The position numbers were made by a program, and so were the translations under genes. Shown piece after piece: positions 9,386 to 63,490 of a stretch of DNA of 64,000 nucleotides (positions are counted from its first letter, which is position 1; the number at the start of each line of letters is the position of its first letter). A model generated the notes under the pieces. It was not told where the DNA came from. It searched no databases and worked only from the letters and a program-made list of their open reading frames with translations. Source of the stretch: Chloroflexota bacterium. Lineage in GTDB: Bacteria; Chloroflexota; Anaerolineae; Anaerolineales; UBA4823. The stretch lies in the NCBI GenBank assembly GCA_029557965.1, contig JAKQIM010000043.1:1-64000 (forward strand), in the 5' to 3' direction.

Positions 9386-9407
9386 TTGACATCGTGTTAT
9401 ACAGCGG

Positions 9408-9437: not shown

Positions 9438-9439
9438 GT

Positions 9440-40079: not shown

Positions 40080-42353
40080 TCAGCGCTTGCGAATGGCAGA
40101 GATCACTGCGATCACCACGACCACGGCGATGAGCACCCCCGAAGCCACGATGGCAGGCAAGAGCCAGCCGGGGCGTTCGACCACCACCGGCTGCGAGACA
40201 TAAGGGGTGGGCACCAAGGTGGTGGCAGGGGCGGCGGTGGCGCCCAGGTTGCCGCTGCCCAGCCCCAGGCGGGTATCGGCGGTGAGGATCTGTTCGCCGT
40301 TGATGACGGCAAAATCGCCCGCCAGCTTGCTAGACAGGCTGGGTGTGGTCAACGCCTGGCTGACCCAGGCTAGGCCCTGGTCTGTGCTGCCCAGCGCAGC
40401 CAGGATGGAGCGCTGGCTTTCCCAGGGGGAGAGCAGGTATTCCAGGTAACCCAGGCTGGTGCCGGCTGGCAGGCGGTAAGTGACCTGGAAGCTGCTTTCA
40501 TTCGCCAAATCGCTGCCGGGATCAAAGGAGGCGGGTAAAGCATCGTGGATGGTTTGCAAGATCGGCAGGCTGCTGGCGCGTCCAACGATCAGCCAATCGA
40601 CATTGGCTGGTAAAGCATCGACCGGCTGGTCTGCAAAGGTTGCCTGCAGGGCCACCAGGGCGCCGTTGGATTTCTGACCCAGGTCGGCGGCAATTTGGGC
40701 TGCCGTATTCCAGGCGACCGCATCTTGCAGGGGCAGGATGAACCCCAACTGCTCGAGGGTTGGGCTGTTGACAAAGGGGAAGGGGTAGGTGTTCAACCCC
40801 TGGACCCGTGCCAGCAGGTCTGATGCCGGCACCAGGGGCAGGTGCAGCAGCGATGTGGGGCTGTATGAGACCCACAGGTTGTTCAGCACCAGTTCTGAGC
40901 AGTAATCCAGGGGCACCAGCTCAGAGACGAGCATCAGGCTGTTGTAGCCAGAACGGACGCTGAAGGCGGGAACCTGGATGCGCTGGGTGGTGACCTGGGT
41001 CGTTTCATCGGTGAAGCGCAGGCTGCCGATGATCTGGTCGTTGAGGTAAACCACGAGCCCCGATCGATCGTAGTTCAGCATGGCTGAGCTGGCGAAGACC
41101 AGGTCGAAGAAGGCTTCGTCGGTGGTTACCTGGCCTGGAGGAATGAAGAAGACAAACTCAGTGTAATGTAGGCTGTAGCCGGTCTCGGTGACGGCATCAT
41201 AGCCAAGATCGGCAAAGGTGCGGTCCTCAGCTACGGCAGGGATGGCGATGCTTTTCTCAACATCAGCCACAATGGCCAGGTTGGGGAGCGCCCCCGGGCG
41301 GACGTAGGAAGAGCTGAGCGCCTGGGCGGCTTTGATCACGCCTTCATCGCTGTTGCCGCTGACCACAAGGGCCACATAGGCACGGTTCCAGGTTGAGACC
41401 GCCATTTGTAAGATGCCATCACTGGGAAGGGCCTCTAGGATCGAAAAGCCTGCCGGGCTCCAGGGAGCAGGTAGGTCCAAAGAGCTGAGGATGGGCAGGC
41501 CCTCAGGTCTTCCGACAAAGACCAGGTGGGCGTTGGCTTGCAGTTCAGGGGTGAGCTGGCTGAGCGACAGCAGTTGAATGGGCATGTTGCCGGCAGTGAT
41601 GCGCCCGAATCCGGCGGCGATGGTGAGCGCGGCTTGCAGTTCGGCCGCGCTGGGCTGGTCTGGCACAATGAGCAAGGTGGTGCTGGGCATTAAGGGATTG
41701 GCCTGGTACAGCGGGCGCGGCAAGAGGCGCAGGTCGGCAGGGGCATCGGCCAGGGCATGGGGTAAGATGAAGATCGAGTCGGCATCTATGCCCAGGGTGG
41801 TCTTGTGGTCAAGCTCGCAGTCAATGGCGGCGTCTAGAAAGATGTACAGCTCATGCCGCCCGTCTGTGCGCGCGGGGGTCAGCGCTTCGGCTGGGATTGG
41901 GATAGAGATGACCCGGGGGCCGCTCCAATCCAGGATGATGGTGGTCAGCAGTTCATCGTTGAAGGTGACATCCAGGGCGCCACCGGTAGCCACGTCGACT
42001 TCGTGGCCGCCTTCTCCCAGGGCATTGGTAAAGAAGGGATTCAGGTGAAGCTGGATCTCTGCGCCTTCAGACAGCGACCAGTTCATGGGCAGGCTGAACC
42101 GCACGCGGTAAGAATCGTAAGGGCCGTGCATCAGGCGGTCGGTGAGCCCTAAGGTGGTGAAAGAAAAGGCATTTGTCGTATCCGAAATATCGCCTGGCCC
42201 TACGGTTGGCTGAGGGGCTGGGGTGGCTTGCTGAGGCGGTTGGGCCTGTGCTGGGCTGGGCAGGCAAAATAAGGCCAACAGGGTGAGGCAGGCAGCGGCG
42301 ATGGTTGTGGCCGTTAGGGCAAATGTCCTGGATTTGGATGAGATGGATTTCAT
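40080..42353 (-). CDS. BcsB-like cellulose-synthase regulatory subunit homologue
   Basis: A 757-residue exported membrane protein. A signal peptide (about 10-40, ALTATTIAAACLTLLALF) is followed by a Pro/Gln-rich stretch and two copies of the carbohydrate-binding plus flavodoxin-like arrangement of BcsB: first copy with DSYRVRFSLPMNWSLSEGAE and RHELYIFLDAAIDCELDH, second with EFVFFIPPGQ and NSLMLVSELVPLDYCSEL. One C-terminal membrane segment (about 725-750) ends with a short basic tail. BcsB guides glucan across the membrane with BcsA. No clear BcsA lies next to it; the nearest GT2 is two genes upstream. Confidence 0.87.
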   Translation of the reverse strand: MKSISSKSRTFALTATTIAAACLTLLALFCLPSPAQAQPPQQATPAPQPTVGPGDISDTTNAFSFTTLGLTDRLMHGPYDSYRVRFSLPMNWSLSEGAEIQLHLNPFFTNALGEGGHEVDVATGGALDVTFNDELLTTIILDWSGPRVISIPIPAEALTPARTDGRHELYIFLDAAIDCELDHKTTLGIDADSIFILPHALADAPADLRLLPRPLYQANPLMPSTTLLIVPDQPSAAELQAALTIAAGFGRITAGNMPIQLLSLSQLTPELQANAHLVFVGRPEGLPILSSLDLPAPWSPAGFSILEALPSDGILQMAVSTWNRAYVALVVSGNSDEGVIKAAQALSSSYVRPGALPNLAIVADVEKSIAIPAVAEDRTFADLGYDAVTETGYSLHYTEFVFFIPPGQVTTDEAFFDLVFASSAMLNYDRSGLVVYLNDQIIGSLRFTDETTQVTTQRIQVPAFSVRSGYNSLMLVSELVPLDYCSELVLNNLWVSYSPTSLLHLPLVPASDLLARVQGLNTYPFPFVNSPTLEQLGFILPLQDAVAWNTAAQIAADLGQKSNGALVALQATFADQPVDALPANVDWLIVGRASSLPILQTIHDALPASFDPGSDLANESSFQVTYRLPAGTSLGYLEYLLSPWESQRSILAALGSTDQGLAWVSQALTTPSLSSKLAGDFAVINGEQILTADTRLGLGSGNLGATAAPATTLVPTPYVSQPVVVERPGWLLPAIVASGVLIAVVVVIAVISAIRKR

Positions 42354-42435
42354 TTTGTATACCTCTTCAACCAGTGGTGCTGGTTTGTGTTTGATCCTGG
42401 CAGGGCGGTCCAGATGATGGGCAGGATGGATCGGT

Positions 42436-43587
42436 TCATCCTGCCAGGCCCTGTAAGAATGGGAGCATTTTTTGGACGACGGCCTCCCAGGTGTAGGCGG
42501 TTTCGACACGCTGGCGAGCGGCCTGGCCCATTTGCTGCCTGCGGGCGGGGTCTTTGAGCAAGCCTAGCATGGCAGATGCCAGGGCCTCGGGCTGGGGGGC
42601 AACAACCAGGCCGGTGGTATCGTGGGCGATAATCTCAGACATGGCATCACCGGTGACGCCAATGCAGGGCAGGCCGTAAGCCATGGCTTCTAACAGAACA
42701 TCGCCCCAGGTTTCTTCGCGGGATGGCAAGACGAAAAGATCAGCCTGCTGGTAAAGGGCGGCAATGGCAGCGCGATCCCAGGTGGGGGCGATGATATCGA
42801 CCATCTCTTGGGAGAAGGCGTGCGGAATCGGGCCGCTGGTGACCATGTTGAGATGGGCACGTGGATAAACCTGGCGCACCTGCGCAAAGGCGTGCAGCAA
42901 GATATCCCCACCTTTGCGTAGAAAATCTTTGCCGATGAATAAGATCTGCGGGCCGGGGATATCGTCTGACCGGGTGGCTGGATCGGGCAGGGTGGCAAAA
43001 TTGACCCCGCCGCCCACTGCGACGACACGCTGCGGGGCAATGCCGTAATCTTGGATGATAGAACGGCGCACGAACTGCCCGCGGGTGAAGATGAGGCTGG
43101 CGCGGGCGAAGGCCTGTTTTTCAAGGGCAATCCACTGTTGGCCCTGTTTCTCGTCAAAGGGGAAGCGCTGGCTGGCGTGTTTACGCTGCGAGAGCACCGC
43201 AGTGTAATCGGTGTAGATGACACCCGGCAGGGATGGGGCAGCCTGGAGGGCATCAAAGAGCACGCCAACCTGAAAGATGAGACATGGAGCTGGCTTTTCA
43301 ACAGCGGCTTGCTGGCGCAGGATGCGCGCGGCACGCTGTGAGCGCAGGTGGAAAGCAGGCAGGTTTTTGTAGAAACGCTCTTTCCAGGTCTGTGGATGGG
43401 GATGAAAGGCTTGGGCCAGGTTGAGCCAGCGGGCCGGGCCGCGCAGGGTGAGGTCGTGGATGGCTTCAACCTGGCAGGCGCGGCTGAGGGCTTCAAAGAG
43501 CAGCCCGTATTTGGTGCGCGCTCCGGCTTCGTTCAGCACGTCGCCAACCAAGAAGCAGGACAGGCATGGGCGCGGTTGGGCGTTCAT
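42436..43587 (-). CDS. Glycosyltransferase family 4 protein
   Basis: A 383-residue GT-B fold glycosyltransferase. The N-terminal half binds the acceptor; the C-terminal half shows the nucleotide-sugar motifs IPGPQILFIGKDFLRKGGDI, LPSREETWGDVLLEAMAYGL and EIIAHDTTGLVV with the ExE-type Glu pair. The sugar and linkage cannot be predicted. It overlaps the preceding GT2 gene by four bases (ATGA), part of an uninterrupted run of polysaccharide genes. Confidence 0.93.
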   Translation of the reverse strand: MNAQPRPCLSCFLVGDVLNEAGARTKYGLLFEALSRACQVEAIHDLTLRGPARWLNLAQAFHPHPQTWKERFYKNLPAFHLRSQRAARILRQQAAVEKPAPCLIFQVGVLFDALQAAPSLPGVIYTDYTAVLSQRKHASQRFPFDEKQGQQWIALEKQAFARASLIFTRGQFVRRSIIQDYGIAPQRVVAVGGGVNFATLPDPATRSDDIPGPQILFIGKDFLRKGGDILLHAFAQVRQVYPRAHLNMVTSGPIPHAFSQEMVDIIAPTWDRAAIAALYQQADLFVLPSREETWGDVLLEAMAYGLPCIGVTGDAMSEIIAHDTTGLVVAPQPEALASAMLGLLKDPARRQQMGQAARQRVETAYTWEAVVQKMLPFLQGLAG

Positions 43588-44792
43588 GCGTTATCCTCGC
43601 GGCGGGCCACGCGCTGCCAGAGGGCGGTCTGCTGCCCACTCAAGAAGCGGTAGAGCCCGCTGACGGCTGACAGGTTGCTGTTGACCAAAAATGCAGGCAG
43701 GTAGAGCAGCTTGCCAATCTTCGAGCGACTGAGGCTGTCATTGCGGTGGATGATGCCGCCAAGCCAGGCCAGGGCATAAAAGATGGCTTGCAGGGCCAGC
43801 AGGATCCAGCCGAATGGCGCGCTGAGGGCCCACAAGCCAGGTTGGGTCGGCCGAGTGGGAAAAAGCAGGACGCCCAGGTTGCCGATCAGCGCGCCCAGCA
43901 TGGCAAAAGGCACCAAAGGGCGAAGGAACTTGTGTGACACCACCTGCCAGATGACGAGGGGGTTGCGCCAGGGCAAGAGCTGGGGAGCAAGCATGGCCTG
44001 GTAACGCCCGGCGATCATGCGGCTGCGGCGGATGGCCTCGTCTTTGGCGCTGGCTGAAACGCGCTCAAACGATCGGGCAGGCGCGGCATACACCACCCGG
44101 TAACCCTGGCGGATGGTCTGCATGGCCAGGCAAAAATCATCGTTGATGATCCGCTCAGGGGGTGGGGCGTAGAGCGCGCGGCGGATGGCGAGGATCTCAC
44201 CAGAAACTCCGGTGCAGTTCCCCAGCCGGGTTTCTTGTTTCTTGATGAAGGATTCGTATTTCCAGTATAAACCTTCTGACTCGCCCAGGGCGCCATCGCC
44301 TTTTTGGATGGTCTTGGCGCCGCTGACCGCGCCAACACCTGGATCGGCAAAGGGGGCCACCAGGTGCCGCAGGGTGTCGGGGGCATAGGTGTTGTTGGCA
44401 TCTGAGAAGACCACCACCTCGCCGTGAGCCTGTTGGATGGAGCGGTTGATGGCAGCCATTTTGCCGCGCCGCTCAGGTTGGTAAACAAGCGTGACGGGGA
44501 AGGATGGCGAGGCAAAGTTCCTGACGATGGCAGGGGTCTGATCGTCAGAGCCATCGGCCGCTACGATGATCTCCAGCCGCTCGGGGGGATAATCGAGGGC
44601 CAGGCTGTTCTCAAGCTTCGAGGCAATGACGGTTTGTTCGTTATAAGCCGCGATGAGCAGGGTGACGCTGGGGGTATGCTGGGGCAAGGGCCTGGGTGAT
44701 GGGCGCAGGCGCGCCAGCACAGCCAACAAAGCCGGGTAGCCCAGGTAGGTGTACAAAATGAGCGCCACACTCAGCCAGAATAAGACAGCCAT
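43584..44792 (-). CDS. Membrane-bound GT2 glycosyltransferase (COG1215-like)
   Basis: A 402-residue protein with an N-terminal membrane segment, a GT-A catalytic domain and C-terminal membrane segments (about 295-365). The catalytic motifs are TLLIAAYNEQ, VAADGSDD, VVVFSDANNTYAP and the base region RIINDDFCLAM, followed by RRSRMIAGRYQ in the position of the QxxRW motif of processive synthases. So it may be a polymerising synthase, possibly the partner of the BcsB-like protein two genes downstream, though the canonical QxxRW is not exact. The ATG at 44792 follows GAGG. Confidence 0.9.
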   Translation of the reverse strand: MAVLFWLSVALILYTYLGYPALLAVLARLRPSPRPLPQHTPSVTLLIAAYNEQTVIASKLENSLALDYPPERLEIIVAADGSDDQTPAIVRNFASPSFPVTLVYQPERRGKMAAINRSIQQAHGEVVVFSDANNTYAPDTLRHLVAPFADPGVGAVSGAKTIQKGDGALGESEGLYWKYESFIKKQETRLGNCTGVSGEILAIRRALYAPPPERIINDDFCLAMQTIRQGYRVVYAAPARSFERVSASAKDEAIRRSRMIAGRYQAMLAPQLLPWRNPLVIWQVVSHKFLRPLVPFAMLGALIGNLGVLLFPTRPTQPGLWALSAPFGWILLALQAIFYALAWLGGIIHRNDSLSRSKIGKLLYLPAFLVNSNLSAVSGLYRFLSGQQTALWQRVARREDNA

Positions 44793-44793
44793 T

Positions 44794-46035
44794 TTAGACC
44801 TCTGCTCCAGCCGGTTGGGCAGGGCGGTTTGCCAGGCGCCGGTACAGCGCTTCAAGCTGTTGGACGACGACCGGCAAAGCGTAGGTGGTTTCAATCTTCA
44901 GGCGGGCCTGGGCACCCAGCCGGGCTCGCAGGGGTGGGTCGCCCAGCAGGGTCAGCAAGGCCTGGGTTAACTGCTCAGGAGCATCAGGCGAGATGAGCCA
45001 GCCGTTTTCGGCGTGGGTGATCACGTCTGATGCGCCGCCCACGTTGGTCACCAGGGCGGGCAGGCCGGTGGACATGGCTTCAAGCATGGCCACCGAAAGC
45101 CCCTCGGCAGTCGATGGCAGGACGAAGAGGTCAGCGGCTTGCAAGTAAGGGGCCACGTCTTCTTGGGGGCCGGCAAAGTGAACGCCCGGACCCGCGGCGG
45201 CCTTCAGGCTGGCCTCCAGCTCGCCAGTGCCCAATATCAACAATAGGGCGCCCGGCAGGGCGCTGCGGACAGCCGGCCAGGCGCTGATAAGCTGGTCAAC
45301 GCGTTTTTCGGCTGCCAGGCGGCCGGTGAAGATGGCGATGGGGTCTCCAGTCAAACCCAGGCGTTGGCGCAGGGCCAGGGCGGCCTCGCCAGCCAGGGGG
45401 GCAAAATGCACGGCATCAACGCCGTTGGGGATGGGGCAGCGCTGGCTGGCGGAGATGCCGGCGGCATCCATTTCATCCGCAATTTCCTGGCTGATAGGGA
45501 TGAAGGCATCTACCGCACGGCGAAAGGCGGCCAGGCGTGCCCCGCCCATGAATTTCTGCTGCAAGCGGTGAAAATCGCCCAGGGGGCCGCTGCGGTGAGC
45601 GGTGACCACCACGGGGGTGCCAAGCATGCGTTTGGCGGCTACGGCGGTGGTGGCCGGAGAGAAAACTTCGTGGGCGTGCAAGACGTGCGGCCGGAGACGG
45701 GCCAAGAGTGGCAGGGCCGCCAGGGTAAAGCTGAGCGAAGCCGTCACTTTGGGCCCGGGGATGGGCAGGCGGTATACCGGAACGCCACCGATGGTCTCAA
45801 AAGCTGATAGGCCGGCATACCGGCGCGTCAGGATGGATACTTGAACGCCGCGGGATTGCAAATGCTCAGCCACGGCGCGGATCTGGCGCTCGGCCCCTCC
45901 AATGAGGGGATGGTAGCGCTGAATCAGCATGGCAACCTTGAGGGGAGCGCTTGTTGGGGCGTGCGGCCTGGGCATGGGCGAGCCATCAGGGCGTGGATCG
46001 ACCCATGGTGATGCGGCGAGCGCGGGGGTGGGCAT
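44794..46035 (-). CDS. Glycosyltransferase family 4 protein
   Basis: A 413-residue GT4 enzyme. After an N-terminal extension of about 30 residues, the acceptor domain starts KVAMLIQRYHPLIGGAERQI; the donor domain has AIFTGRLAAEKRVDQLISAW, the catalytic LPSTAEGLSVAMLEAMSTGL and ITHAENGWLISP. GGAER/IRAVAEHL is typical of capsule and exopolysaccharide enzymes that act on lipid-linked sugars. The donor sugar cannot be told. It starts two bases after the preceding GT4 gene and ends next to the GT2 start. Confidence 0.94.
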   Translation of the reverse strand: MPTPALAASPWVDPRPDGSPMPRPHAPTSAPLKVAMLIQRYHPLIGGAERQIRAVAEHLQSRGVQVSILTRRYAGLSAFETIGGVPVYRLPIPGPKVTASLSFTLAALPLLARLRPHVLHAHEVFSPATTAVAAKRMLGTPVVVTAHRSGPLGDFHRLQQKFMGGARLAAFRRAVDAFIPISQEIADEMDAAGISASQRCPIPNGVDAVHFAPLAGEAALALRQRLGLTGDPIAIFTGRLAAEKRVDQLISAWPAVRSALPGALLLILGTGELEASLKAAAGPGVHFAGPQEDVAPYLQAADLFVLPSTAEGLSVAMLEAMSTGLPALVTNVGGASDVITHAENGWLISPDAPEQLTQALLTLLGDPPLRARLGAQARLKIETTYALPVVVQQLEALYRRLANRPAQPAGAEV

Positions 46036-46036
46036 C

Positions 46037-47164
46037 TTAGAGACACTCCTGGTACAGTGAAAGGAGGCGCTCGAACCACGGGCGGGTGTGGTAGTGGGCT
46101 TCGGCGTGCTGCCGGGCTGCCTGGCCCAGGCGAGCGCGCTGCTCAGGGTCGTGCAGCAAATCGATCACCGCGGCAGCAAGTTGATCGGGCTGGTGCGGAG
46201 GAACAAGCCGGCCTGTGCCGGGCGAGAGTACGAGGGGGTTTTCGCCCACGCTGGTCACCACGCAGGGCAGGCCGGCCATCATTGCCTCTAACAGGGCCAG
46301 GGGCAGGCCCTCCCAATGGGAGGCGCTGACGAAGAGGTCGCTGGCTGCCAACAAGGCCGGCACATCTGTGCGCGCGCCCAATAAAATTACGCTGCTGCCC
46401 AGCCCCAGGGCTTCGGCCTGGGCTTGCAGGTCGGTGCGCAGCGGGCCATCGCCCGCAATGACCAGGGCCACGCCTGGGCAGGCCGAGCGCACCACAGCCA
46501 GGGCATCTAACAAGTCGGCATAGCCCTTGGGAATCGAGAGCCGCCCTACGGCGATCATCAATGGGCGTTCGGCATTGCCGGCGGCATTACCGGTGATGCT
46601 TTGGCGCAGGGCCAGGCGCTCGGCAGCAGATAGGGCGGCAGGGGCGGGCACAGCGTTGGGGATGACCGTGATGGGCTTGTTCCCCAGGCGAGGCTGGTGG
46701 GCCTGGGCCACGCTGTGCCCAACCGCAATCACGCGCCGTGCGCCCAGGCGCAGCCCCCAGGCTTCCAGGCGCTGGCGCCCGGCATGATAATGGCGGGCCT
46801 CCTGGCTGACGGAGTGCAGGGTGCCGATCACCGGCAAGCCCGCCAGGCGGCCTGCCAATACCCCGATGATGTTGGCGTAGGTGAGGTGAGTGTGCAGGAT
46901 GTCAAACTGCCCCTGGCGCAAGAAGCGGGCAATCCGCAGGATGCGGCCCGGTGAGAGCAGGCCTTGGCCCGTGAAATAGACCACCTGGGCTTGCAAGCTG
47001 CGTAGCTCAGCCTCCACCGGCGAGGCAGGGATTTGTTTCAGGCCGATCACAGCCAGGGGCAGGTCGTGTGCCTGGGCCTCGGCTGCAAAGTTGACCAACA
47101 GCTTTTCGGCGCCGCCAACTTTGATCGAGTCGATCATCTGTACGATGCGCAGGGGCTGGTTCAC
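46037..47164 (-). CDS. Glycosyltransferase family 4 protein
   Basis: A 375-residue GT4 enzyme. RIVQMIDSIKVGGAEKLLVN opens the acceptor domain, HTHLTYANIIGVLAG follows, and the donor domain shows AVGRLSIPKGYADLLDALAV, VSASHWEGLPLALLEAMMAG and LVLSPGTGRLVPP. This is the layout of glycosyltransferases extending undecaprenyl-linked repeat units. It overlaps the flippase gene by four bases. Specificity unknown. Confidence 0.94.
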   Translation of the reverse strand: MNQPLRIVQMIDSIKVGGAEKLLVNFAAEAQAHDLPLAVIGLKQIPASPVEAELRSLQAQVVYFTGQGLLSPGRILRIARFLRQGQFDILHTHLTYANIIGVLAGRLAGLPVIGTLHSVSQEARHYHAGRQRLEAWGLRLGARRVIAVGHSVAQAHQPRLGNKPITVIPNAVPAPAALSAAERLALRQSITGNAAGNAERPLMIAVGRLSIPKGYADLLDALAVVRSACPGVALVIAGDGPLRTDLQAQAEALGLGSSVILLGARTDVPALLAASDLFVSASHWEGLPLALLEAMMAGLPCVVTSVGENPLVLSPGTGRLVPPHQPDQLAAAVIDLLHDPEQRARLGQAARQHAEAHYHTRPWFERLLSLYQECL

Positions 47165-48642
47165 AGGGCGGCTCCGGTACTTTTACGTTTGAAGGCGGCC
47201 TTGAGGGTCTCAATGGCGCCTTGCAGCAAGGGGCGGTGGAAGAGCCACAGCGCGCCGCTGTAGATAGCCATGCCAACGCTGACGCTCGCAATCAACTGTG
47301 CCCAATGGTTGGCGGTGTTCAATACCGTTAAGGTTGCCAAAACGCCGGCAGACATCAGGGCGCCGTTCACGAATGCGGGGCGCAGCGTAGCAAGGATGGT
47401 CTGGAAAGGGGTGTGCAGCATGCGGCTGGCAATGTACAGCTCGAAGATGCCCGAGACAAAGGCCACCGCAGCATGCGTCCAGCCGACGGCGGTGATGGTG
47501 CCGGGCCCCAAGATAGCCCAGAGCAGGGCGGGGATCAAGACGATGGCGCGCAGGATGGAGATTTGGGTCAAAACGATGGGCCGGCCCTGGGCTTTGTAAA
47601 CATCGCCAGCATTGTAGGCCAGCGAAAGCATGACAGAATAAATGGAGATAGCCTGCATGACCGGGATGGCTTCGATCCACTTTTCGGTGAAGAAGGCCAA
47701 CACCAGGGGGCGCGCCACCAGGGCCATGCCCAGGCCCATTGGCACCGTCACCAGCGAGACGTAACGGGTGGTGGTTAAGAAGCCGCGCTGCAGGGCCTGG
47801 GGATCTTCGCGCATGCGGGCATAGACCGGGAAGATGACTTTGCTGATGACATCGCAGAACTGCATCACCAACAGATCGGGGAAGCGGAAGGCCACGGTGT
47901 ACACACCCAGGGCCGCAGCGCCCAAGAAACGCCCCACCAGCAGGTAGTCGGCATTGTTCAAGGTGATGCCCAAGGCATCTACCGAGACGATGTTCAGCCC
48001 GTAAGACAGCAAGGGCCGGACGAGGGATTTGGCAAATTGGAAGGATGGCCGCCAGGGCATGATGCGCCACAGCACCACCACCGATAAGGCGCGCCCCACG
48101 ATCTGCCCGATGATCAGGCTCCAGGCGCCAAAGCCCAAGAGGGCTAAGATGATGGATGCCAGCCCTTTGCTGATGGCTTTGACGAAATCGGGGATGAATT
48201 TGCGTCCGAAGGAGAGCTCTTTGCGCAGCAGGGTATCGTGGATGCTGCCCAGGGCTGAGATGGGGAAGACCAATGCCAGGGCACGCGTGACCGGCACGGC
48301 GCGCGGGTCTTGGAAGAAGCTGCCAACCAGCGGCGCGCCAAAGAAGGTGACCAGAAATAAAAGAATGCCAATGCCAATATTCAGCCAGAAGGCTGTGATC
48401 CGCGCCTTGGGATTGTCGCGGTGGTAGATCAACGCCGGGCCAATGCCCAGGTCACTGAGTACTTCGAGGAAGCTGATCACCACCGTGGCATAGCCAGCTA
48501 CCCCAAATTCCTCTTCAACCAGCAGGCGCGCCAGGATAACAGTGCTCAAGAAAACCATCAGCTTGCCGCTGTAGAAAGACGCGTACGTCCAAAACGTGCC
48601 GCGCAGGGTGGCTTTCGCCAGGTCGGGGGAGGAATCAGGCAT
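47161..48642 (-). CDS. Oligosaccharide flippase (Wzx-type, MOP superfamily)
   Basis: A 493-residue membrane protein with 12-14 hydrophobic segments that should move lipid-linked repeat units across the cytoplasmic membrane. It begins with a soluble helix then TLRGTFWTYASFYSGKLMVF, and includes LLVEEEFGVAGYATVVISFL, LNNADYLLVGRFLGAAALGV and KVIFPVYARMREDP, segments typical of the lipopolysaccharide/Wzx-like MOP exporters. It overlaps the polymerase gene by eight bases. Its presence makes the locus a Wzx/Wzy-type system rather than an ABC- or synthase-type one. Confidence 0.92.
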   Translation of the reverse strand: MPDSSPDLAKATLRGTFWTYASFYSGKLMVFLSTVILARLLVEEEFGVAGYATVVISFLEVLSDLGIGPALIYHRDNPKARITAFWLNIGIGILLFLVTFFGAPLVGSFFQDPRAVPVTRALALVFPISALGSIHDTLLRKELSFGRKFIPDFVKAISKGLASIILALLGFGAWSLIIGQIVGRALSVVVLWRIMPWRPSFQFAKSLVRPLLSYGLNIVSVDALGITLNNADYLLVGRFLGAAALGVYTVAFRFPDLLVMQFCDVISKVIFPVYARMREDPQALQRGFLTTTRYVSLVTVPMGLGMALVARPLVLAFFTEKWIEAIPVMQAISIYSVMLSLAYNAGDVYKAQGRPIVLTQISILRAIVLIPALLWAILGPGTITAVGWTHAAVAFVSGIFELYIASRMLHTPFQTILATLRPAFVNGALMSAGVLATLTVLNTANHWAQLIASVSVGMAIYSGALWLFHRPLLQGAIETLKAAFKRKSTGAAL

Positions 48643-50167
48643 AAGAAGAGCCCGGGTTCACCCTGGCAAGGGTATTCTTGGCGATCTGGGGCAAGGATAA
48701 TGCGATGCCGATCAAGAGATAAAAGAAGCGTGGATAAGCGCCGTGGATGAAGAAAGCCGCACTCAGGTAACCGATCATGGCGATGATCAATGATGCTACC
48801 AGGTCTGCCTCGGGATGCAGGCCTGCCTTGAGGAAGGCCAGGCGAGATTTGTGCATGCAAGAGAAGACTGACCACAGGATGGCGCTGAAGATCAAGATGC
48901 CAGCCATGCCGTTCTCAGCCGCTACTTCAAGGAACAGGTTATGCGGCTCGCGAGCTTCGGTGCGCGGATCGTAGCCGATGCGGCGCGAGTATTCCTGGTA
49001 TAAGGTGGGGTAATTGCCCACACCTACACCCAATACGGGATGATCGGCAAACATTTGGATGCCCACCAACAGTTCACTGGCCCGGCCGCGAAAAGAGACC
49101 TCAGAGCGCACGTCATTTTGGCCAGAAAACAGATCGGCAACGGAGAGCAGGCGTTCGGTATAGGTGGCGGGGATCAGGCGCAGCAAGCCGGCGCCCATCA
49201 CGAGGATCAGGGCTACCTCAATGGGGCGGGGCGGGCGAAAGACTGCCATGGCAACCAGCATGATCAGCAAGGCCACAAAGGCGCCGCGCGAATAGCTGAA
49301 CATGACGGTGAGGGCGCAGACGGCAAAGGCCCAAAGAGCCAGGAGGCGCAGTGGCACAGATTTCTCTGCACCGGCGCGCATCACTGCCAGGGGGATGAGA
49401 ACCAGCATGATCTGGGCAAAGAAGTTGGGGTCTCCAATTGGCCCTCCGACCCGGCCTCCTTCGGTGGTGCCCACCAGGTTCAATACAGGGGCCTGCCCAA
49501 ACCCCCAAAAGGCATTATTCCAGTCGCTGGTCAAGAATTGGTACACGCTGATGCTGCCCATCAAGATACCCGCCACCAACAGCATCCAAACAGCCCCCCG
49601 CAAGGTGGCAATGTTTTGCATTAATACGACGATGATGACGGTGATGATGGCATCTTTGATGAAATCGCTAAGCGCCTCGCGGGCGGCCCAAAAATCTGAG
49701 GCATAGAGGAGGGAGGTAAAGATCACCAGGCCGTACACGCCCATCAGCACTGTCGGGCGTACCCATCCCTGGGGCTGTTCTTGATATAAGGCCCAGCGCA
49801 CCAGGATGGCGGCAATGAGCAGGGCTACCAGGGGCTTGGCGATGGAGGGGGCGCCGTGATACTCGATCAGCACGTCTGAGAGCCGGGTGTAGGTGGCAAA
49901 AATGAACGCTAATAGACCCAGGTCCGGGCGAATGATGGTCAGGATGGCTACGATCACACCTGCAATGGCGGCCGCGGTGACCAGCGGCCCCAAGAAGCGC
50001 GAGACAGCCAGGGCTGTGCCAGTGCCGGTGATGAAAGCCAGGAAGGCAAAACCCAGCGAGAGCCAGCTCACATGGAATGATTTGGCCTGGCGGGCAAGGG
50101 GTGGGTGCCTATTGCTCTGCCCTGTAGATTGCCAGGCAGGCAAGGCTTTGAACAGAACAGCTTTCAA
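48635..50167 (-). CDS. O-antigen ligase/polymerase-like membrane protein (Wzy/WaaL type)
   Basis: A 510-residue protein with about twelve membrane segments and a large outer loop (around 340-410) containing ELLVGIQMFADHPVLGVGVG and REPHNLFLEVAAENGMAGIL. The HN and GVG patterns of this loop mark the Wzy_C/WaaL family. In a Wzx/Wzy locus it should join repeat units into the chain; transfer to a protein or wall acceptor is the other possibility. It starts three bases after the chain-length protein gene, which regulates polymerases of this type. Confidence 0.92.
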   Translation of the reverse strand: MKAVLFKALPAWQSTGQSNRHPPLARQAKSFHVSWLSLGFAFLAFITGTGTALAVSRFLGPLVTAAAIAGVIVAILTIIRPDLGLLAFIFATYTRLSDVLIEYHGAPSIAKPLVALLIAAILVRWALYQEQPQGWVRPTVLMGVYGLVIFTSLLYASDFWAAREALSDFIKDAIITVIIVVLMQNIATLRGAVWMLLVAGILMGSISVYQFLTSDWNNAFWGFGQAPVLNLVGTTEGGRVGGPIGDPNFFAQIMLVLIPLAVMRAGAEKSVPLRLLALWAFAVCALTVMFSYSRGAFVALLIMLVAMAVFRPPRPIEVALILVMGAGLLRLIPATYTERLLSVADLFSGQNDVRSEVSFRGRASELLVGIQMFADHPVLGVGVGNYPTLYQEYSRRIGYDPRTEAREPHNLFLEVAAENGMAGILIFSAILWSVFSCMHKSRLAFLKAGLHPEADLVASLIIAMIGYLSAAFFIHGAYPRFFYLLIGIALSLPQIAKNTLARVNPGSSYA

Positions 50168-50170: not shown

Positions 50171-51301
50171 TTAAGCTTCCTCTGCCAGCACCACTGGGCA
50201 CTGCGTGCCCCTTTTGTCACGCCCTTGCAGGAGTGCGGTTTCTAGTGCTTTGGTGGTGCGCTCGACCAGGCTTTGAACGGAGCTATTGTTTTCATAGGTG
50301 GCAACCCCAACATAAGGCTCAAGGTTGAGGGTTTCATTGGCGTTAAAAACACCGTTTTCTAGAATGATGGGGGTAGAGAGAGCCTGGCAAATGCGTTTGA
50401 GCGTTCGGATTGCGGCCGTGCCGGGCGTGGCAGGCAGCAAAATGGCGAAGCAGAGATCATCCCAGCGCCCAACGATGTCACCGCCGCGCAGCTCTTTGCG
50501 CAGGATGGTTGCCACCTGGCGCAGCAGGGGCTGCATCAGCGGCTGGGGCAGGGTATCGATCAGGTCTTTCAGGCCGTTCATCTGGATCATCGCCAGTGAA
50601 AGCACCCCCTCAGGACGCTGCGCTACCTCATCCTCCAGTACATGTTGGAAATGACGGCGGTTATAAGCCCCTGATGCGCCGTCGAGGTTGCGGCGTTGGC
50701 GGTAGGCATCCAGGGGAATGCGGATCTGTTCGCTCAAGATGGCTAACCCAACTCCCACAACAGCCCCCAATACCAATGACAGCCCGGCATCGCGAATGGG
50801 TTGAGGGCTGGTGGGCTCGGTGGGCGCGGCGGCTGGGTCGAGCAGGTTGATATCGTAGATCTGGTAATAGGTTTTGATGTAATCAATGCCGCGCTGGCCC
50901 ACGCTGTTGGCCAATAGGGCTGTGAGTTGGGGATCTGGGCCTTCTACTGAAAGCTCGAGGATGTTGGCATCGGGCAGGACTACCGCAGAGATCTCGTAAC
51001 TGCTCAAGTCATCGGCGTTCAATCCCAGTGCCACGCTGGTCTCTTGAAAGATGCGCGAGCTTTGCATAAACTCGGCATAGGTCGAGACCACCGACCGTTT
51101 GTCGAGTGTGTCCAGGCTGTTTAGAACATCGGCGGCTTTGATTAACTCGGGGTTAGGGCTGACCACGAAGCGGGCGCTGGCCTGGTAAATGGGTGTGGCA
51201 AGGTAGGCCGATATCAGGGCCACATTCAAAGCTGCCAGGGCCGTGATGGCAATGATCCACCATCCGCGCTGCAGCATGCGTAAATAATACCGTAATTCCA
51301 T
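50171..51301 (-). CDS. Wzz-type chain-length determinant fused to a degenerate GGDEF domain
   Basis: A 376-residue membrane protein. Residues 1-190 are a Wzz-like module: first membrane segment (about 15-35) after MELRYYLRMLQRGWWII, periplasm-side domain with YQASARFVVSPNPELI, and the second segment (about 170-190) preceded by a Pro-rich turn. No Wzc-type tyrosine kinase follows. Instead residues about 205-370 form a GGDEF fold: DGASGAYNRRHF, KELRGGDIVGRW and LEPYVGVATYEN. The catalytic GGDEF reads DDLCF, so it cannot make c-di-GMP, yet RGGD sits where the RxxD inhibitory site binds that nucleotide. I infer a PelD-like c-di-GMP receptor controlling chain length. Confidence 0.88.
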   Translation of the reverse strand: MELRYYLRMLQRGWWIIAITALAALNVALISAYLATPIYQASARFVVSPNPELIKAADVLNSLDTLDKRSVVSTYAEFMQSSRIFQETSVALGLNADDLSSYEISAVVLPDANILELSVEGPDPQLTALLANSVGQRGIDYIKTYYQIYDINLLDPAAAPTEPTSPQPIRDAGLSLVLGAVVGVGLAILSEQIRIPLDAYRQRRNLDGASGAYNRRHFQHVLEDEVAQRPEGVLSLAMIQMNGLKDLIDTLPQPLMQPLLRQVATILRKELRGGDIVGRWDDLCFAILLPATPGTAAIRTLKRICQALSTPIILENGVFNANETLNLEPYVGVATYENNSSVQSLVERTTKALETALLQGRDKRGTQCPVVLAEEA

Positions 51302-51334: not shown

Positions 51335-52585
51335 TCATCCGCCGGTCACCGTGCGGAACAGGGCTGCCAGTTGTCGAACATTGGCTTGCAGCTCGAATTC
51401 TTGCAATACCAAAGAACGCCCAGCAGCAGCCAGGTTAGAGGCCGCCGCGGGCTGCTGGTACACTTCAATCATTGCATCAGCCAGGGCCTGTGCATCACCA
51501 GGTGGAACAAGGTAGCCGGTTTTGCCAGGCTGGATCAACTCAGGGATACCCGAGATCGATGTGGCAATGCAGGGCACCTGACAAGCCAGGGCTTCCATCA
51601 ACGAGACCGGAATCCCCTCCATCTTACCTGAGGCGGTGATGATGCTGGGCTGAACGTAGCAATCGGCCTGCGAAAGCCGCTTGGCAACCTGAGATTGCAC
51701 GAGAGGACCCGTTAACTCAACGTGGTCTGCCAACCCCAAATCGTTGATCTGTTTCTCAAGCCTGGGCCGTTCCTCGCCGCCGCCGATGATCTGGCAGTGG
51801 AAGGGGATGCCGCGTTGGGCCAGGTACTGGCAGGCCTGGATGAGGTGTTTTTGACCTTTATAGGGTTGGAGACTGCCAATCGATAGGATCCGCAGGGGTG
51901 TAGAACGCTCGAGAACAATGGGCCGCGCCGGGTAAAGGTTTGGCTCGATACCGCAGTGGATCACGTGGATCTTCGGTTGTATCCATTCGCCCAATAAATT
52001 GGTTAAATATTGCCGATTATACTCTGATATAGCAACTATGAAAGAAGCAGAGCGCAGCTTGGTGGAGAGCATGGCTGTGCGCACGAAGATATCGTGGGCG
52101 TGTACCGTGACACTGTAACTCAGGCCGGTCAGGCGGTGAATGAGCCAGGCCATCAGGGCGGGGTGGCTGCCATAGTGGGCATGGACGTGGCTGACATTCT
52201 CCTTTTTCATTGCGTGCGCCATCCAGACGGCCTGAGGTAAGATGGCAACTGCGCGCAGCAAAAAATTGGGGCTGGAGCGGTTTTCGCGCAGCACTTGAGC
52301 CCACAGACCGGCATAGGCGCGCGGGTGGCGAAAGCATAAGCGGCTATTATCGCGCAAGACGGGCAAAGAGAGGATGGGCGTCCAGCGAACGCGTTCCAGC
52401 CAGGGGCGGGCCTCCGGATGGATGACGGCTTGTTTTTGATAGATCAGGGGATATAAGGCTACTTCCCAGCTCTGTGCGCCGTCTGCTTCGCCGCGCTGCT
52501 GCTCTAAGGCAATCATCTCCCGCAAGATGAAGGTCTCGGGCAGATGGGGAAAACGTGACATTACATAAGCGATCTTAGGGGGCAT
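51335..52585 (-). CDS. Glycosyltransferase family 4 protein
   Basis: A 416-residue GT4 enzyme of the exopolysaccharide type. It opens with KIAYVMSRFPHLPETFILRE, has VSHVHAHYGSHPALMAWLIH and the donor-site motifs ILSIGSLQPYKGQKHLIQAC, VQPSIITASGKMEGIPVSLM and LIQPGKTGYLVPPGDAQALA. Enzymes with this start (PETFILRE) often add colanic-acid-like or EPS side sugars. It lies three bases after the initiating sugar transferase gene, so it may add the second or third sugar. Confidence 0.94.
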   Translation of the reverse strand: MPPKIAYVMSRFPHLPETFILREMIALEQQRGEADGAQSWEVALYPLIYQKQAVIHPEARPWLERVRWTPILSLPVLRDNSRLCFRHPRAYAGLWAQVLRENRSSPNFLLRAVAILPQAVWMAHAMKKENVSHVHAHYGSHPALMAWLIHRLTGLSYSVTVHAHDIFVRTAMLSTKLRSASFIVAISEYNRQYLTNLLGEWIQPKIHVIHCGIEPNLYPARPIVLERSTPLRILSIGSLQPYKGQKHLIQACQYLAQRGIPFHCQIIGGGEERPRLEKQINDLGLADHVELTGPLVQSQVAKRLSQADCYVQPSIITASGKMEGIPVSLMEALACQVPCIATSISGIPELIQPGKTGYLVPPGDAQALADAMIEVYQQPAAASNLAAAGRSLVLQEFELQANVRQLAALFRTVTGG

Positions 52586-52588: not shown

Positions 52589-53302
52589 TCAGTGCGCGCC
52601 GCGCTGTTTGAGGGCGGCAAAAACCGTCAGGAACAAGATAACGATATCGAGAGAGATACAGCGGTGTTCAATGTATGCGATATCCATCCGCAGGCGGTCG
52701 TCGAACTCGCTCTCGCCGCGCCCAATGATCTGCCACAAGCCAGTCAGCCCAGGTTGCACATCCAGGCGCTCGGTGTGCCAGAGATCGTAGGTTTCTGTGC
52801 CGAAGGAAGTGGGGCGGGGGCCAACCAGGCTCATTTCGCCTTTGAGCACATTGAACAACTGGGGGAGTTCATCCAGGCTGGTTTTGCGCAGAATGCGCCC
52901 AACGCGTGTGATGCGCGGGTCGTTGGTGATCTTGAAATCGGGCCACTGCAGTTCATTCAGGTGGGCATACTTGAGCTTTAGTTCCTCAGCATTCATCACC
53001 ATGCTGCGGAACTTGTACATCTTGAAACGTTTGCCCCCTTTGCCCGTGCGCAGTTGGTGGAATATGACCGTGCCGCGCGGCTCTTGTATTTTGATCAGCA
53101 GGGTAATCAATCCCATCAGTGGCAGCCAGGCAGGCGACAGCAGCAGCACAATGGCAATATCCATGAAACGCTTGGCTGCCAGGTAGGCTGGTATGTTCAG
53201 CAGGCTTTTGGCAGGGTCAAAGTGTTCCAGCCAGGTATAGCTGGCATCAGAAAGCCTGGCGTGGGCATCAGAAATCTTGGGAGTGGTTGAAATACTTGAC
53301 AT
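52589..53302 (-). CDS. Undecaprenyl-phosphate sugar-phosphotransferase (initiating transferase)
   Basis: A 237-residue monotopic membrane enzyme that starts the repeat unit by moving a sugar-1-phosphate to undecaprenyl phosphate. The re-entrant membrane helix (about 46-66, AIVLLLSPAWLPLMGLITLL) precedes KMYKFRSMVMNAEE, the catalytic Asp-Glu in KTSLDELPQLFNVLKGEMSL, and VGPRPTSFGTETYDLW plus VQPGLTGLWQIIGRGE. Only the short C-terminal domain form is present, as in PglC/PssY types. It is the second gene of the locus, 23 bases after the TM-GGDEF gene. Confidence 0.96.
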   Translation of the reverse strand: MSSISTTPKISDAHARLSDASYTWLEHFDPAKSLLNIPAYLAAKRFMDIAIVLLLSPAWLPLMGLITLLIKIQEPRGTVIFHQLRTGKGGKRFKMYKFRSMVMNAEELKLKYAHLNELQWPDFKITNDPRITRVGRILRKTSLDELPQLFNVLKGEMSLVGPRPTSFGTETYDLWHTERLDVQPGLTGLWQIIGRGESEFDDRLRMDIAYIEHRCISLDIVILFLTVFAALKQRGAH

Positions 53303-53325: not shown

Positions 53326-54159
53326 TTAGGTGATGGGGGCTTCCATTTGCAGCTCAGCCTGCTGGAGCATTTCTTCAAAGGTTAGGGCATCGTCGGGAAA
53401 GTTGGAAGCACCGATCTTTAAGGTCAGGTTCAAGTTCTGCCCGGCAGTTTCTTTGATCCGGCTTGTCAAAGCCTGGATGCCATCCCGGGTTGTTTCTGGG
53501 CAAATGACCACAAACCAGCCGTTCTGATCGTGTTCGAGCACCAGGTCTGTGCGGCGTGCTTCATTCATTATCAGGCGTGCCAGGCTGGTGGATAGATAGC
53601 GGTTGAGCATGTTATTCTGAATCTCTTGGACGGTCTGCTGTAGCCGCCTTTGGAATGAGCTGGCAGTCGGCTGGACAAGGAGGATAGAGAGCGGGCGGTT
53701 GTAGCGGCGGCTGCGGATGAACTCCGTCTTGATATCTTCTAACGCTTCAGACATTCTAAGGACGCGCTGTTGAGAGGATGGAAAGGTCACGCGCTCGACG
53801 ACGGCTTCCAACTCGCCCAAGAACTTGAGCAGTTCATAAGTGGCGTAGATCGAGACGATGAGCAAGAACAGCTCCGTCATGGTCAGGTAGGTGTTCAGCC
53901 CGCCTATCAAAGGAACACTCCTGAAGACCAGCAGCCGCAAGGCAAAATAGATGGCGATCCAAAATGCCAGGATGGCATAGATTGAAAAGCGGCGTGTGAT
54001 GGGAATGGCAATCATCGTTACAACAGCTACCAGCAGTTGAACATAGACAAATGATTGGATGTCAATTAAGTTCTCTTGTCCAAAATCCAGACGTTCAATA
54101 TTATAAGCAAACGCCATGAACAAGATCAGGATCAGGAGTGATTTCCGCAGACTGGTCAT
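53326..54159 (-). CDS. Membrane protein with degenerate GGDEF-like domain at the head of the EPS locus
   Basis: A 277-residue protein: four or five membrane segments (to about residue 120), a coiled linker (ELEAVVERVTFPSSQQ) and a GGDEF-like domain (about 150-270). The domain has FIRSRRYNRPLSILLVQP, ARRTDLVLEHDQNGWFVVIC and LKIGASNFPDDALTFEEM, the last typical of the GGDEF C-terminal end. The GGDEF signature itself reads DQNGW, so it should not be catalytic; RRTD keeps the RxxD pattern of the inhibitory site. The start is uncertain: ATG 54159 is chosen because a possible -10 box lies upstream, while the frame extends to 54288. Confidence 0.8.
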   Translation of the reverse strand: MTSLRKSLLILILFMAFAYNIERLDFGQENLIDIQSFVYVQLLVAVVTMIAIPITRRFSIYAILAFWIAIYFALRLLVFRSVPLIGGLNTYLTMTELFLLIVSIYATYELLKFLGELEAVVERVTFPSSQQRVLRMSEALEDIKTEFIRSRRYNRPLSILLVQPTASSFQRRLQQTVQEIQNNMLNRYLSTSLARLIMNEARRTDLVLEHDQNGWFVVICPETTRDGIQALTSRIKETAGQNLNLTLKIGASNFPDDALTFEEMLQQAELQMEAPIT

Positions 54160-54387: not shown

Positions 54388-57003
54388 ATGGGTAAGCTAA
54401 AACCGATGAAGTCTGGCGGTGGGGGTGGCTTGAAAGGGATGTCGAAACCGCCTATGCCGGCCCGCCCGGCAATGCCAGTTCGTCCACAAATCAACATTTC
54501 TCGTCCACAGGCAGCGCCCCGCCCGGCCGCGGTGCAGTTGCCGCGTGGCGCAAACACCAACCGTATCGTTGCGCGCGAGGTCAAGCGCGAGGCTTTTCAA
54601 CAGCAGGTAGCGAAACAGCAGGCGCAAACACCGCGCTTTGGGGTACGCCCCGCTTCTCAGCCGCAGAAGATCATGCCCAAACAGCCGGCGCCCGCATCCC
54701 GTCCTTTGAACACCTTGCGCCCTCAAAACGCCGCGCGCCCACAGGGCATGGTGCGCCCGAATGCGTTTTCGTTTGGGCAGGGGCAGAACGTGTTAGCCCA
54801 GGCCGCGAAGCCGGCTGCCAAGCCCGCCGCCCAGCACCAGGGCATCCAGGGCGTTCAAAAGCAGAGACCCGGCGCAGTGCGCCCGCCTAGTTCGCCCAGC
54901 GCGTCGGGCCTGAAGAGCCTGCCCAAGCGTCCTACTGCCCAGGCTCCACAAGCCCCCCAGGTTCCTCAGGGTGTGGTCCGCCCTCCGATGCCCCAAAGTG
55001 TGGTCCGGCCGGGCTATCCCTCGGCTGGGGCTGCTGCCGGTGCGGCGCTCTTGAGCTCGCTCATCTTGAACAGCGGGGCAGCCCACCCGCAGATCTCGAC
55101 CGAGGTTTCTTCGCTGGATTATTCCCTGTCTGATCTGCGCGATCGCAGTACCTTGAGCCAGGTGCAGGCTGATGTGGCCCAGATCGATTCGGCCATTAAC
55201 CATGCCGTCAGCCTGTTAGAAAGCGCTCGCAGCAAGGGCTATGTTTATCAGAAGGACCTGGATGATATTGCTTACCAGGCCATGGGGCGCTGGCAGCCAG
55301 TGCGCGACCAGGTGCTGCAGAGCATTTCGCAGCAGTCAACCAGCTTTCAGAGCCGCCTGGGTGGCTTGAGCAGCCAGGTTTCGAGCTTGAATGCCGTCTT
55401 GGGCAATCCTCAGGCGGCTTCTTACCAACTGGGGAACACCGCCTCACAGGTCAACACCCTGCTCGGTGAGCTGAGCCAGATCGAGAGCACACTGCAAGCC
55501 AGCTATGCCGACATTGAAGGCGCCGTCTCAACCCTGACCTCGCGCCTGAACGGTGTTCACTGGGGCTTGAGCCAGCTTGGCGAATCCAAGTTTAAGCTGG
55601 CGAATGGGGAAAACCTGGTGACGGTTGTGCAGGCGCGTTGGGACCAGGTGGGCGACGATGACCCTGAAGGCCTCTTGTTCCTGACCAACAAGCGCTTGAT
55701 CTTTGAACGCAAAGAGAAAGTGGCGACCAAGAAGATCCTTTTCTTCACCACCACGACCGAATTGGTGCATGAAGTGATGATCGACCAGCCCATGGCAAAC
55801 ATCAAAGATACCAAGGCGATCAACAAGGGCCTCTTTGGGCACCAGGACTTCTTAGAAGTGGCATTCAGCGATCCTAAGTTGGGTTCGGTACCTTTCCATC
55901 TTAATGGTCAAGACTGCAAGGATTGGACGGTTTTGGTCCAGCGTTGCAAATCTGGCGATATCGAAAACGACCGTACCTCAGGCAGCGGCCTGTCATTCTC
56001 GGATCTGACCGGCACGCTTTCTGCGGCCGACCTGGTGAACCTGCAAAGTGAAGTGAATGCTTTGCAGGATGTGGTGACACTCAAAGCCGTGCGTGAAGAG
56101 TTGGGTGCGATCGAAAACGATATGCGCTCGCTGGAACGCGACCTGGCGGGCTTACGCTCGCGCGGCTACGTGATCGAGAAGAGCCTTGAAGCTGACGTGG
56201 TGGTGCTGGCAACGCAGTGGGACCGCATCAAAACCAACGCCGTCACCTCGCTCGAGAATCAAACCCGCCTGTTGGGCGATCAGATGTCTGAGATCCAGAA
56301 GAACATGGCTACGTTGGCGGGCCAATCGAACAACCTGAATGCCGCGCGTCCCTTGTTCATGCAGGTCAAGTCGGCGGTGGCTTCTGCTGAAGCCCAGGCT
56401 GATGCTGCCGACGACGCAGTGATTGCTCAATATGACCAATATGCCGATGAGGTAGAGTCGTTGACGGCGCACCTGGCCTGGGTAGGCTGGATGTTGGATG
56501 CACTGGCAACCGCCTCCTTCCAGCTTTTGGCTACCGAGAGCGGCGTGGCTGCCACTGAGGCAATGTTCGCCCGGCCGAGCGCCGAGTTGGAAAACGGCAT
56601 TCTCTTCCTCACCGATCAGCGTTTATTGTGGGAAGATCGGGTTGAGACCTTTGAGCTGAAGCTTGATGTGCCGCTTTCTCAGGTGACGGACGTGCAGAAG
56701 ACGGTAGACGAAGCCACCGGGCAGGAGTTCTTGAACTTCAGCTTTGCGGGCGGCGGGCTTTATTCTGCGGCCCAATTCCACCTATCACTGCCGGTGGGCG
56801 ATGCCTGGTTGAAAATGGTGGGCCGGGCGCGCTCAGGCGATTATGCCAAGGATCGGGCAGTTGAAATTGACCAGGCAGAGCTGGAGCGCATTCGCAATGC
56901 CCCCAAGCAGTGCTCGAACTGCGGCGCAGGCCTGACGGCCCCGATCTTGCGTGGGCAAACCGAAATTACTTGCGAATACTGTGGGCAGGTGATCCGTTTC
57001 TAA
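54388..57003 (+). CDS. Large duplicated protein with GRAM/PH-like modules and C-terminal zinc ribbon
   Basis: An 871-residue cytoplasmic protein of unknown function. Residues 1-225 are a Pro/Arg/Gln/Ala-rich, probably disordered tail. Two similar modules follow (about 240-530 and 545-825), each made of long helices then a beta-rich unit: GYVYQKDL/GYVIEKSL, a Trp segment (VHWGLSQLGESKF and VGWMLDALATASF), LLFLTNKRLIFE/ILFLTDQRLLWE, and a closing SGDIENDR/SGDYAKDR. The beta unit resembles GRAM or bacterial PH domains, which bind lipids or peptides. A zinc ribbon (CSNCGAGL and CEYCGQ) ends the chain. AAGGAGG sits eight bases before the ATG. It precedes a kinase gene by 100 bases. Confidence 0.88.
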   Translation: MGKLKPMKSGGGGGLKGMSKPPMPARPAMPVRPQINISRPQAAPRPAAVQLPRGANTNRIVAREVKREAFQQQVAKQQAQTPRFGVRPASQPQKIMPKQPAPASRPLNTLRPQNAARPQGMVRPNAFSFGQGQNVLAQAAKPAAKPAAQHQGIQGVQKQRPGAVRPPSSPSASGLKSLPKRPTAQAPQAPQVPQGVVRPPMPQSVVRPGYPSAGAAAGAALLSSLILNSGAAHPQISTEVSSLDYSLSDLRDRSTLSQVQADVAQIDSAINHAVSLLESARSKGYVYQKDLDDIAYQAMGRWQPVRDQVLQSISQQSTSFQSRLGGLSSQVSSLNAVLGNPQAASYQLGNTASQVNTLLGELSQIESTLQASYADIEGAVSTLTSRLNGVHWGLSQLGESKFKLANGENLVTVVQARWDQVGDDDPEGLLFLTNKRLIFERKEKVATKKILFFTTTTELVHEVMIDQPMANIKDTKAINKGLFGHQDFLEVAFSDPKLGSVPFHLNGQDCKDWTVLVQRCKSGDIENDRTSGSGLSFSDLTGTLSAADLVNLQSEVNALQDVVTLKAVREELGAIENDMRSLERDLAGLRSRGYVIEKSLEADVVVLATQWDRIKTNAVTSLENQTRLLGDQMSEIQKNMATLAGQSNNLNAARPLFMQVKSAVASAEAQADAADDAVIAQYDQYADEVESLTAHLAWVGWMLDALATASFQLLATESGVAATEAMFARPSAELENGILFLTDQRLLWEDRVETFELKLDVPLSQVTDVQKTVDEATGQEFLNFSFAGGGLYSAAQFHLSLPVGDAWLKMVGRARSGDYAKDRAVEIDQAELERIRNAPKQCSNCGAGLTAPILRGQTEITCEYCGQVIRF

Positions 57004-59294: not shown

Positions 59295-59302
<8 letters not shown>
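59251..59302. terminator. Perfect bidirectional terminator between kinase and acyl-AMP ligase genes
   Basis: Two perfectly complementary 23-base arms flank the loop CATCGA. Runs of A and T at both ends of the arms give a U tract in each direction, and the ligase stop codon lies inside the right arm. It should end both convergent transcripts. Confidence 0.85.
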
Positions 59303-61034
<1,732 letters not shown>

Positions 61035-61038
61035 GGGG

Positions 61039-61284: not shown

Positions 61285-61312
61285 AAGGATTCCTTTATCT
61301 GTACAAAGTGTG

Positions 61313-63486: not shown

Positions 63487-63490
63487 GGCC

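Follow-up and report, generated by a model that had tools for sequence, protein, structure and literature searches.

Direct control by c-di-GMP is established for synthase-dependent polymers, namely cellulose, alginate and Pel. Chain length in Wzy-dependent pathways has been described as being set by PCP-2 proteins that cycle through tyrosine autophosphorylation, their kinases acting through phosphorylation-dependent ring assembly (PMC12220298). Several described proteins resemble in part the one reported here, a Wzz protein joined to a degenerate GGDEF domain, which we designate WzzG. The PCP-2a protein Wzc (solved structures 7nhr and 9xgv) shares with WzzG a Wzz module of two TM segments, followed immediately after TM2 by a regulatory domain in the cytoplasm; however, WzzG has a degenerate GGDEF domain where Wzc has the kinase domain and tyrosine tail, and its extracytoplasmic part is much shorter. 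PelD of Pseudomonas and Bacillus cereus is, like WzzG, a membrane protein encoded in an exopolysaccharide operon, and its degenerate GGDEF domain has RxxD and a downstream arginine, but it differs in having four TM segments and a GAF domain and in serving a synthase-dependent system in which it is not a co-polymerase. The PelD triad is R367/D370/R402 in P. aeruginosa and R363/D366/R395 in B. cereus, and in the latter organism all three residues are needed for c-di-GMP binding (PMC7112168). Alg44 of the alginate system combines a co-polymerase and a c-di-GMP receptor domain in one protein, as we propose for WzzG, and BcsE of the cellulose secretion system has a degenerate GGDEF-like domain without catalytic residues and serves polysaccharide export (PMC8461298). 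Unlike WzzG, Alg44 uses a PilZ domain, is not a Wzz protein and belongs to a synthase-dependent pathway instead of a Wzx/Wzy pathway, whereas BcsE is an accessory protein of cellulose synthase with no co-polymerase fusion. Dead-GGDEF I-site receptors (PelD) and a PilZ co-polymerase (Alg44) are already known; the Wzz-GGDEF co-polymerase is new as far as the open-access literature goes, in which no description of such a fusion was found. EPS273-A/EPS273-O of P. stutzeri do not form one, as the GGDEF protein and the Wzz tyrosine kinase are two separate chains.

The window analyzed here is a 64,000-nucleotide stretch of a contig (JAKQIM010000043.1) from the Chloroflexota, a group of bacteria that form filaments and biofilms and have received little study. 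WzzG is located in an operon with the gene order TMdGG - PGT - GT4d - WzzG - Wzy - Wzx - GT4c - GT4b - GT2 - (GT4a) - BcsB (Table 1), in which TMdGG is a second degenerate GGDEF protein and PGT a small phosphoglycosyl transferase. All of these genes are read from the minus strand; from TMdGG through Wzy they are 3-33 bp apart, and Wzy starts 3 bp downstream of the WzzG stop. In loci from over 20 genomes, some of them of another class, the order is the same apart from small changes, and the locus is therefore a Wzx/Wzy-dependent exopolysaccharide operon. In several lineages, the BcsB-like gene directly adjoins WzzG; none of the operon genes that were scanned was recognized as a BcsA with a PilZ domain. 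A c-di-GMP riboswitch in the window was rejected, as no Rfam family reached its gathering score there, and promoter and terminator scans gave results near shuffle expectation and were set aside.

Table 1. Features of the WzzG operon in the window, with the evidence for each assignment
Feature	Position	Strand	Evidence
WzzG, Wzz (PCP) module (residues 1-195) and degenerate GGDEF domain (about 200-363), 376 aa	50171..51301	minus	Pfam, AlphaFold, family searches
Wzz/co-polymerase part of WzzG: TM1, small extracytoplasmic domain, Pro-Gly-rich motif, TM2	50717..51301	minus	Pfam Wzz, profile match
Degenerate GGDEF domain of WzzG, residues 200-363	50213..50704	minus	Pfam GGDEF, fold comparison
RGGD, I-site RxxD motif (R272-D275)	50477..50488	minus	family conservation
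DDLCF replacing GG[DE]EF, residues 281-285	50447..50461	minus	motif-free in 62 full-length members
R303, third I-site arginine (PleD R390/PelD R402 equivalent)	50393..50395	minus	family conservation
TMdGG, 277 aa: four predicted TM segments, degenerate GGDEF domain at the C-terminus, RRTD I-site (R202-D205)	53326..54159	minus	fold, co-occurrence, PGT adjacency
Small initiating phosphoglycosyl transferase (PGT, Bac_transf), TMdGG partner	52589..53302	minus	Pfam E 3.7e-62
Glycosyltransferase GT4d, conserved neighbor	51335..52585	minus	Pfam, locus comparison
Wzy-type polymerase/ligase (Wzy_C)	48635..50167	minus	Pfam E 8.3e-22; adjoins WzzG in most loci
Wzx-type flippase (Polysacc_synt_3)	47161..48642	minus	Pfam, locus comparison
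Four more glycosyltransferases (GT4c, GT4b, GT2, GT4a)	42436..47164	minus	locus comparison
BcsB-like protein, conserved in WzzG loci	40080..42509	minus	Pfam BcsB E 2.8e-45

An earlier note, made from the DNA sequence alone, had given the exact coordinates of WzzG; its reading frame is on the minus strand, the plus strand of the same interval being interrupted by stops. The Wzz module with two membrane segments described in that note is borne out by Pfam and by the helices of the structural model. The Pfam Wzz domain covers residues 2-89 (E 3.5e-13, above cut-off), GNVR gives a weak match under its cut-off at residues 146-189, around TM2, and in the AlphaFold model helices 14-34 and 168-205 bound the Wzz part. 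When a profile built from the N-terminal 195 residues of seven relatives was compared with solved structures, the only matches with good E values were Wzc tyrosine kinases (E 2.5e-6). Residues P163, P166, P168, G179 and G183 of the Wzz part are invariant. As in other PCP proteins, TM1 and TM2 flank an extracytoplasmic domain, and Wzx and Wzy are encoded alongside. The feature that defines PCP-2a proteins, a C-terminal BY-kinase with Walker motifs and a tyrosine-rich tail, is not present; the C-terminal part of WzzG gave no match to a BY-kinase domain and has a GGDEF fold instead.

Pfam assigns residues 205-362 to GGDEF (E 9e-19, above cut-off), and the domain is complete in the AlphaFold model (pLDDT 81 for the protein, with block values mostly 77-89 in the domain and one loop lower). 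Comparison of the model with solved structures of GGDEF domains gave Z 23.0 (rmsd 1.9, 161 residues), and that with PleD (9g85) gave Z 22.9 (rmsd 2.0, 162 residues), so the structure prediction that the earlier note had called for agrees with the fold it proposed. Structures of PelD were absent among the structural matches listed, which we do not count against similarity. The two motifs claimed in the note, DDLCF at the catalytic five residues and RGGD at the RxxD position, both read as described.

The note had also called for a family search for Wzz-GGDEF fusions, and this search gave 62 full-length relatives, 37 of them below 80% identity; because so many could be extracted, WzzG is not a chance product. 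A GG[DE]EF-like motif was found in none of the 62. For comparison, 38 canonical GGDEF domains of related genomes were aligned with the 37 non-redundant members (below 80% identity). The catalytic columns, which are 97-100% conserved in these canonical domains of the same order, have all drifted in WzzG, at the equivalents of D240, D242, K245, N248, D249, G252, H253, G256 and D257 as well as G281, G282, E284 and K357. WzzG thus lacks the GG[DE]EF motif and the metal- and GTP-binding residues of an active diguanylate cyclase, and the alignment supports a catalytically dead domain.

The range of WzzG was read from Chloroflexota genomes and plasmid records. Full-length homologs had identities from 61% down to 32%. 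Of 301 genomes sampled in the order, 70 matched the WzzG profile at E below 1e-32 and 68 carry the fusion; the two other matches are a Wzz-BY-kinase (genome G003) and a gene cut by a contig end (G195). WzzG is present in genomes of other Chloroflexota classes too, and the cultured Levilinea saccharolytica carries it. Plasmid records yielded one further full-length homolog, from Leptolinea, while the other matches listed cover the GGDEF part only. In Leptolinea sp. HRD-7, WzzG is plasmid-encoded, annotated as a hypothetical protein and has RSND as its I-site motif; the plasmid of this isolate that holds the WzzG operon is circular and 212 kb in size (AP024711.1). An unusual variant was observed in genome G521 (positions 711-2273), a WzzG of 520 aa in which the degenerate GGDEF domain is followed by an additional acidic stretch of ~150 residues at the C-terminus.

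TMdGG, a candidate PelD-like receptor which was absent from the earlier note, is encoded three genes from WzzG in the same operon. The longer ORF listed for it begins too early. The C-terminal domain barely registers against Pfam GGDEF (E 0.009), but it folds as GGDEF (Z 17.8, 139 residues), with model confidence that is moderate there and low in the membrane part. With its four TM segments, degenerate GGDEF domain and no GAF domain found, TMdGG is closer to PelD than WzzG is. It has no GGDEF motif. RxxD is kept in most of its relatives and lost in several, and therefore RxxD is not required by the fold in this lineage. We considered whether loss of the TMdGG I-site is tied to kinase-tailed Wzz, as suggested by G003 (two loci) and G031. 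This correlation was rejected, as two other genomes (G276 and G238) have a Wzz-BY-kinase in the locus with the RxxD of TMdGG intact.

TMdGG was found within two ORFs of PGT in 32 of the 41 loci read, including a fusion in which both form one 595-aa chain (G521, contig C143, about 8179-9966). In this fused chain the I-site arginine is lost (YATD). WzzG and TMdGG co-occur in the order sample, where 47 genomes had both, 21 WzzG only, 13 TMdGG only and 220 neither; as genomes are not independent, the Fisher value for this is no more than indicative. The locus of Leptolinea HRD-7 has WzzG but not TMdGG, so a scheme with two receptors is not universal; the transferase there is an ordinary large WbaP-type enzyme with a membrane part and, in our reading of its sequence, a Rossmann-like part of its own. 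TMdGG may correspond to the regulatory half of such a large transferase that has been split in two, and it probably gives c-di-GMP control of chain initiation. Direct control of an initiating PGT by a signaling protein has one experimental precedent, EpsW-EpsZ of Myxococcus, which resembles the proposed TMdGG-PGT pair in the post-translational control of the transferase (PMC12802240); in that case, however, the regulator is a phosphorylated response regulator and not a degenerate GGDEF protein.

In WzzG, RGGD is located five residues upstream of DDLCF, which is the canonical RxxD-5-GGDEF spacing. The I-site of PleD, as given in a review, consists of R359, D362 and R390, and WzzG has RxxD and a downstream arginine at the corresponding positions, with an arginine-to-arginine spacing of 31 residues as in PleD R359/R390. 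The same three WzzG residues match R367, D370 and R402 of PelD in position and spacing. The presence of RxxD is by itself weak evidence, because 37 of the 38 canonical GGDEF domains also carry it, as expected by descent, and we rejected it as a sole argument for a receptor. The argument, which is one from sequence, rests on the retention of the I-site after loss of every catalytic residue. Among the 37 non-redundant members, R272 is retained in 37 (100%), D275 in 36 (97%) and R303 in 35 (95%). R272 is the sole column at 100%, and all three residues are among the nine of 157 columns with at least 94% conservation; the chance of three columns named beforehand falling among those nine is about 1e-4. 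At the position of R303, the canonical controls have arginine in 28 of 38 (74%), a lower share than in WzzG. In G031, WzzG has RQGE in place of RxxD and TMdGG is without an I-site.

It could be argued that the dead GGDEF domain is a pseudo-enzyme scaffold, used only for dimerization or as a docking site for TMdGG, PGT, Wzy or a BY-kinase acting in trans, and that it binds no nucleotide. RxxD would then be inherited and help the fold, which would agree with its presence in nearly all canonical controls, and other non-catalytic residues (D207, R279 and F285) are retained in WzzG as well. However, the higher retention of R303 than in the controls and the unique invariance of R272 speak against this explanation, and since relatives of TMdGG tolerate the loss of RxxD, the fold does not demand it. 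We consider a scaffold without ligand unlikely. The data instead support a PelD-like I-site logic in a Wzz-joined dead GGDEF domain at a Wzx/Wzy locus. The earlier note had called the domain PelD-like, which holds for the I-site triad kept after catalytic loss; it does not hold for architecture or context, as WzzG has two TM segments and a Wzz domain, no GAF domain was found in it and it is located outside a pel locus, with no pel synthase seen at the Wzx/Wzy locus. Altogether, we think it reasonably probable that WzzG is a co-polymerase whose cytoplasmic dead diguanylate cyclase acts as a c-di-GMP I-site receptor.

No tyrosine kinase gene had been seen in the earlier reading, and indeed no BY-kinase was detectable in the window and none above the family cut-off in the source genome (56% complete). 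That reading had further placed c-di-GMP control in place of tyrosine phosphorylation by Wzc/Wzb, a claim that is sustained at the locus. In G003, which belongs to the same family, the Wzz protein at the equivalent locus carries a BY-kinase and is encoded between the polysaccharide genes and PGT-TMdGG, and this Wzc-type protein thus occupies the position of WzzG. Four other genomes (G453, G597, G438 and G179) have at the locus a Wzz without a cytoplasmic domain. A tree built from Wzz parts placed the protein of G003 inside the group of WzzG and Wzz-only proteins, apart from the seven ordinary Wzz-BY-kinases of these genomes, although several inner branches are weak and the tree is compatible with multiple origins of the fusion. 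The kinase tail in G003, the Wzz-only genomes and the tree therefore indicate that tails of three kinds have been joined to a single Wzz scaffold. For the cell as a whole, the claim of the note does not hold generally. BY-kinases above the family cut-off occur elsewhere in 14 of the 20 WzzG genomes tested, and so the kinase has been replaced at the locus but not generally in the cell.

These kinases would also be available if WzzG were a PCP-2b-like membrane adaptor for a separate BY-kinase, with c-di-GMP tuning the partnership. However, four genomes that are 95-98% complete (G057, G060, G210 and G249) have WzzG and no BY-kinase above the cut-off, no separate kinase was found beside WzzG in the loci read, and ordinary BY-kinases carry a Wzz part of their own, all of which makes a kinase partner in trans quite improbable. 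There is next to no probability that the domain works at the export machine through a non-standard motif, either as an active diguanylate cyclase that makes nucleotide or as a GTP-binding protein that senses it. The Pfam GGDEF score is above cut-off and cyclases with AGDEF-type variants exist (PMC3974145), but the losses across the family go beyond a single motif residue and take in the two glycines, the acidic residue, the aspartate that binds metal, and the N and D positions that contact guanine.

Our best reading is that, at this locus, an I-site receptor of the PelD kind stands in for the tyrosine kinase and that c-di-GMP has an input both at chain initiation and at chain length. In such a mechanism, c-di-GMP would bind WzzG at R272/D275/R303, probably as an intercalated dimer bridging neighboring subunits, as in PleD and PelD. 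Binding might alter the packing of the cytoplasmic ring of the Wzz oligomer and, through it, the hold of this ring on Wzy, and the altered hold could set chain length or switch polymerization on, the direction and the target of the effect being purely inferred. The initiating sugar-phosphate transferase would receive this signal too, by way of TMdGG, and the locus would thus have c-di-GMP inputs at initiation and at polymerization. The broader proposal of a third kind of co-polymerase control, in which c-di-GMP in many Chloroflexota directly governs Wzx/Wzy assembly at WzzG and at TMdGG-PGT and the Wzz scaffold exchanges kinase and receptor tails in evolution, is plausible but tentative.

If WzzG functions in this way, having an I-site receptor at the kinase position of a co-polymerase, it would join the fields of c-di-GMP signaling and Wzy-dependent chain length. 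It would also make testable the long-standing question of how Wzy receives its instructions from the cytoplasmic part of a Wzz/Wzc ring, because a WzzG system would respond to a small ligand, which could be supplied or withdrawn freely, and not to a pattern of phosphorylation. The mechanism would be relevant to the formation of biofilms, granules and filaments by Anaerolineae in sludge and sediments.

Several other genes were observed beside the operon in the window. Divergent from it is a gene (54388-57003, plus strand) whose 871-aa product matches GRAM domains and has a C-terminus resembling a zinc ribbon; next comes a gene for a Ser/Thr kinase that has a PD40 propeller (57104-59239). Further on, the minus-strand region 59295-63889 contains genes for an acyl-AMP ligase, a small acyl-carrier-protein-like ORF and SGNH/GDSL- and MBOAT-like proteins, and it is possible that these form a polymer acylation cassette adjoining the operon.
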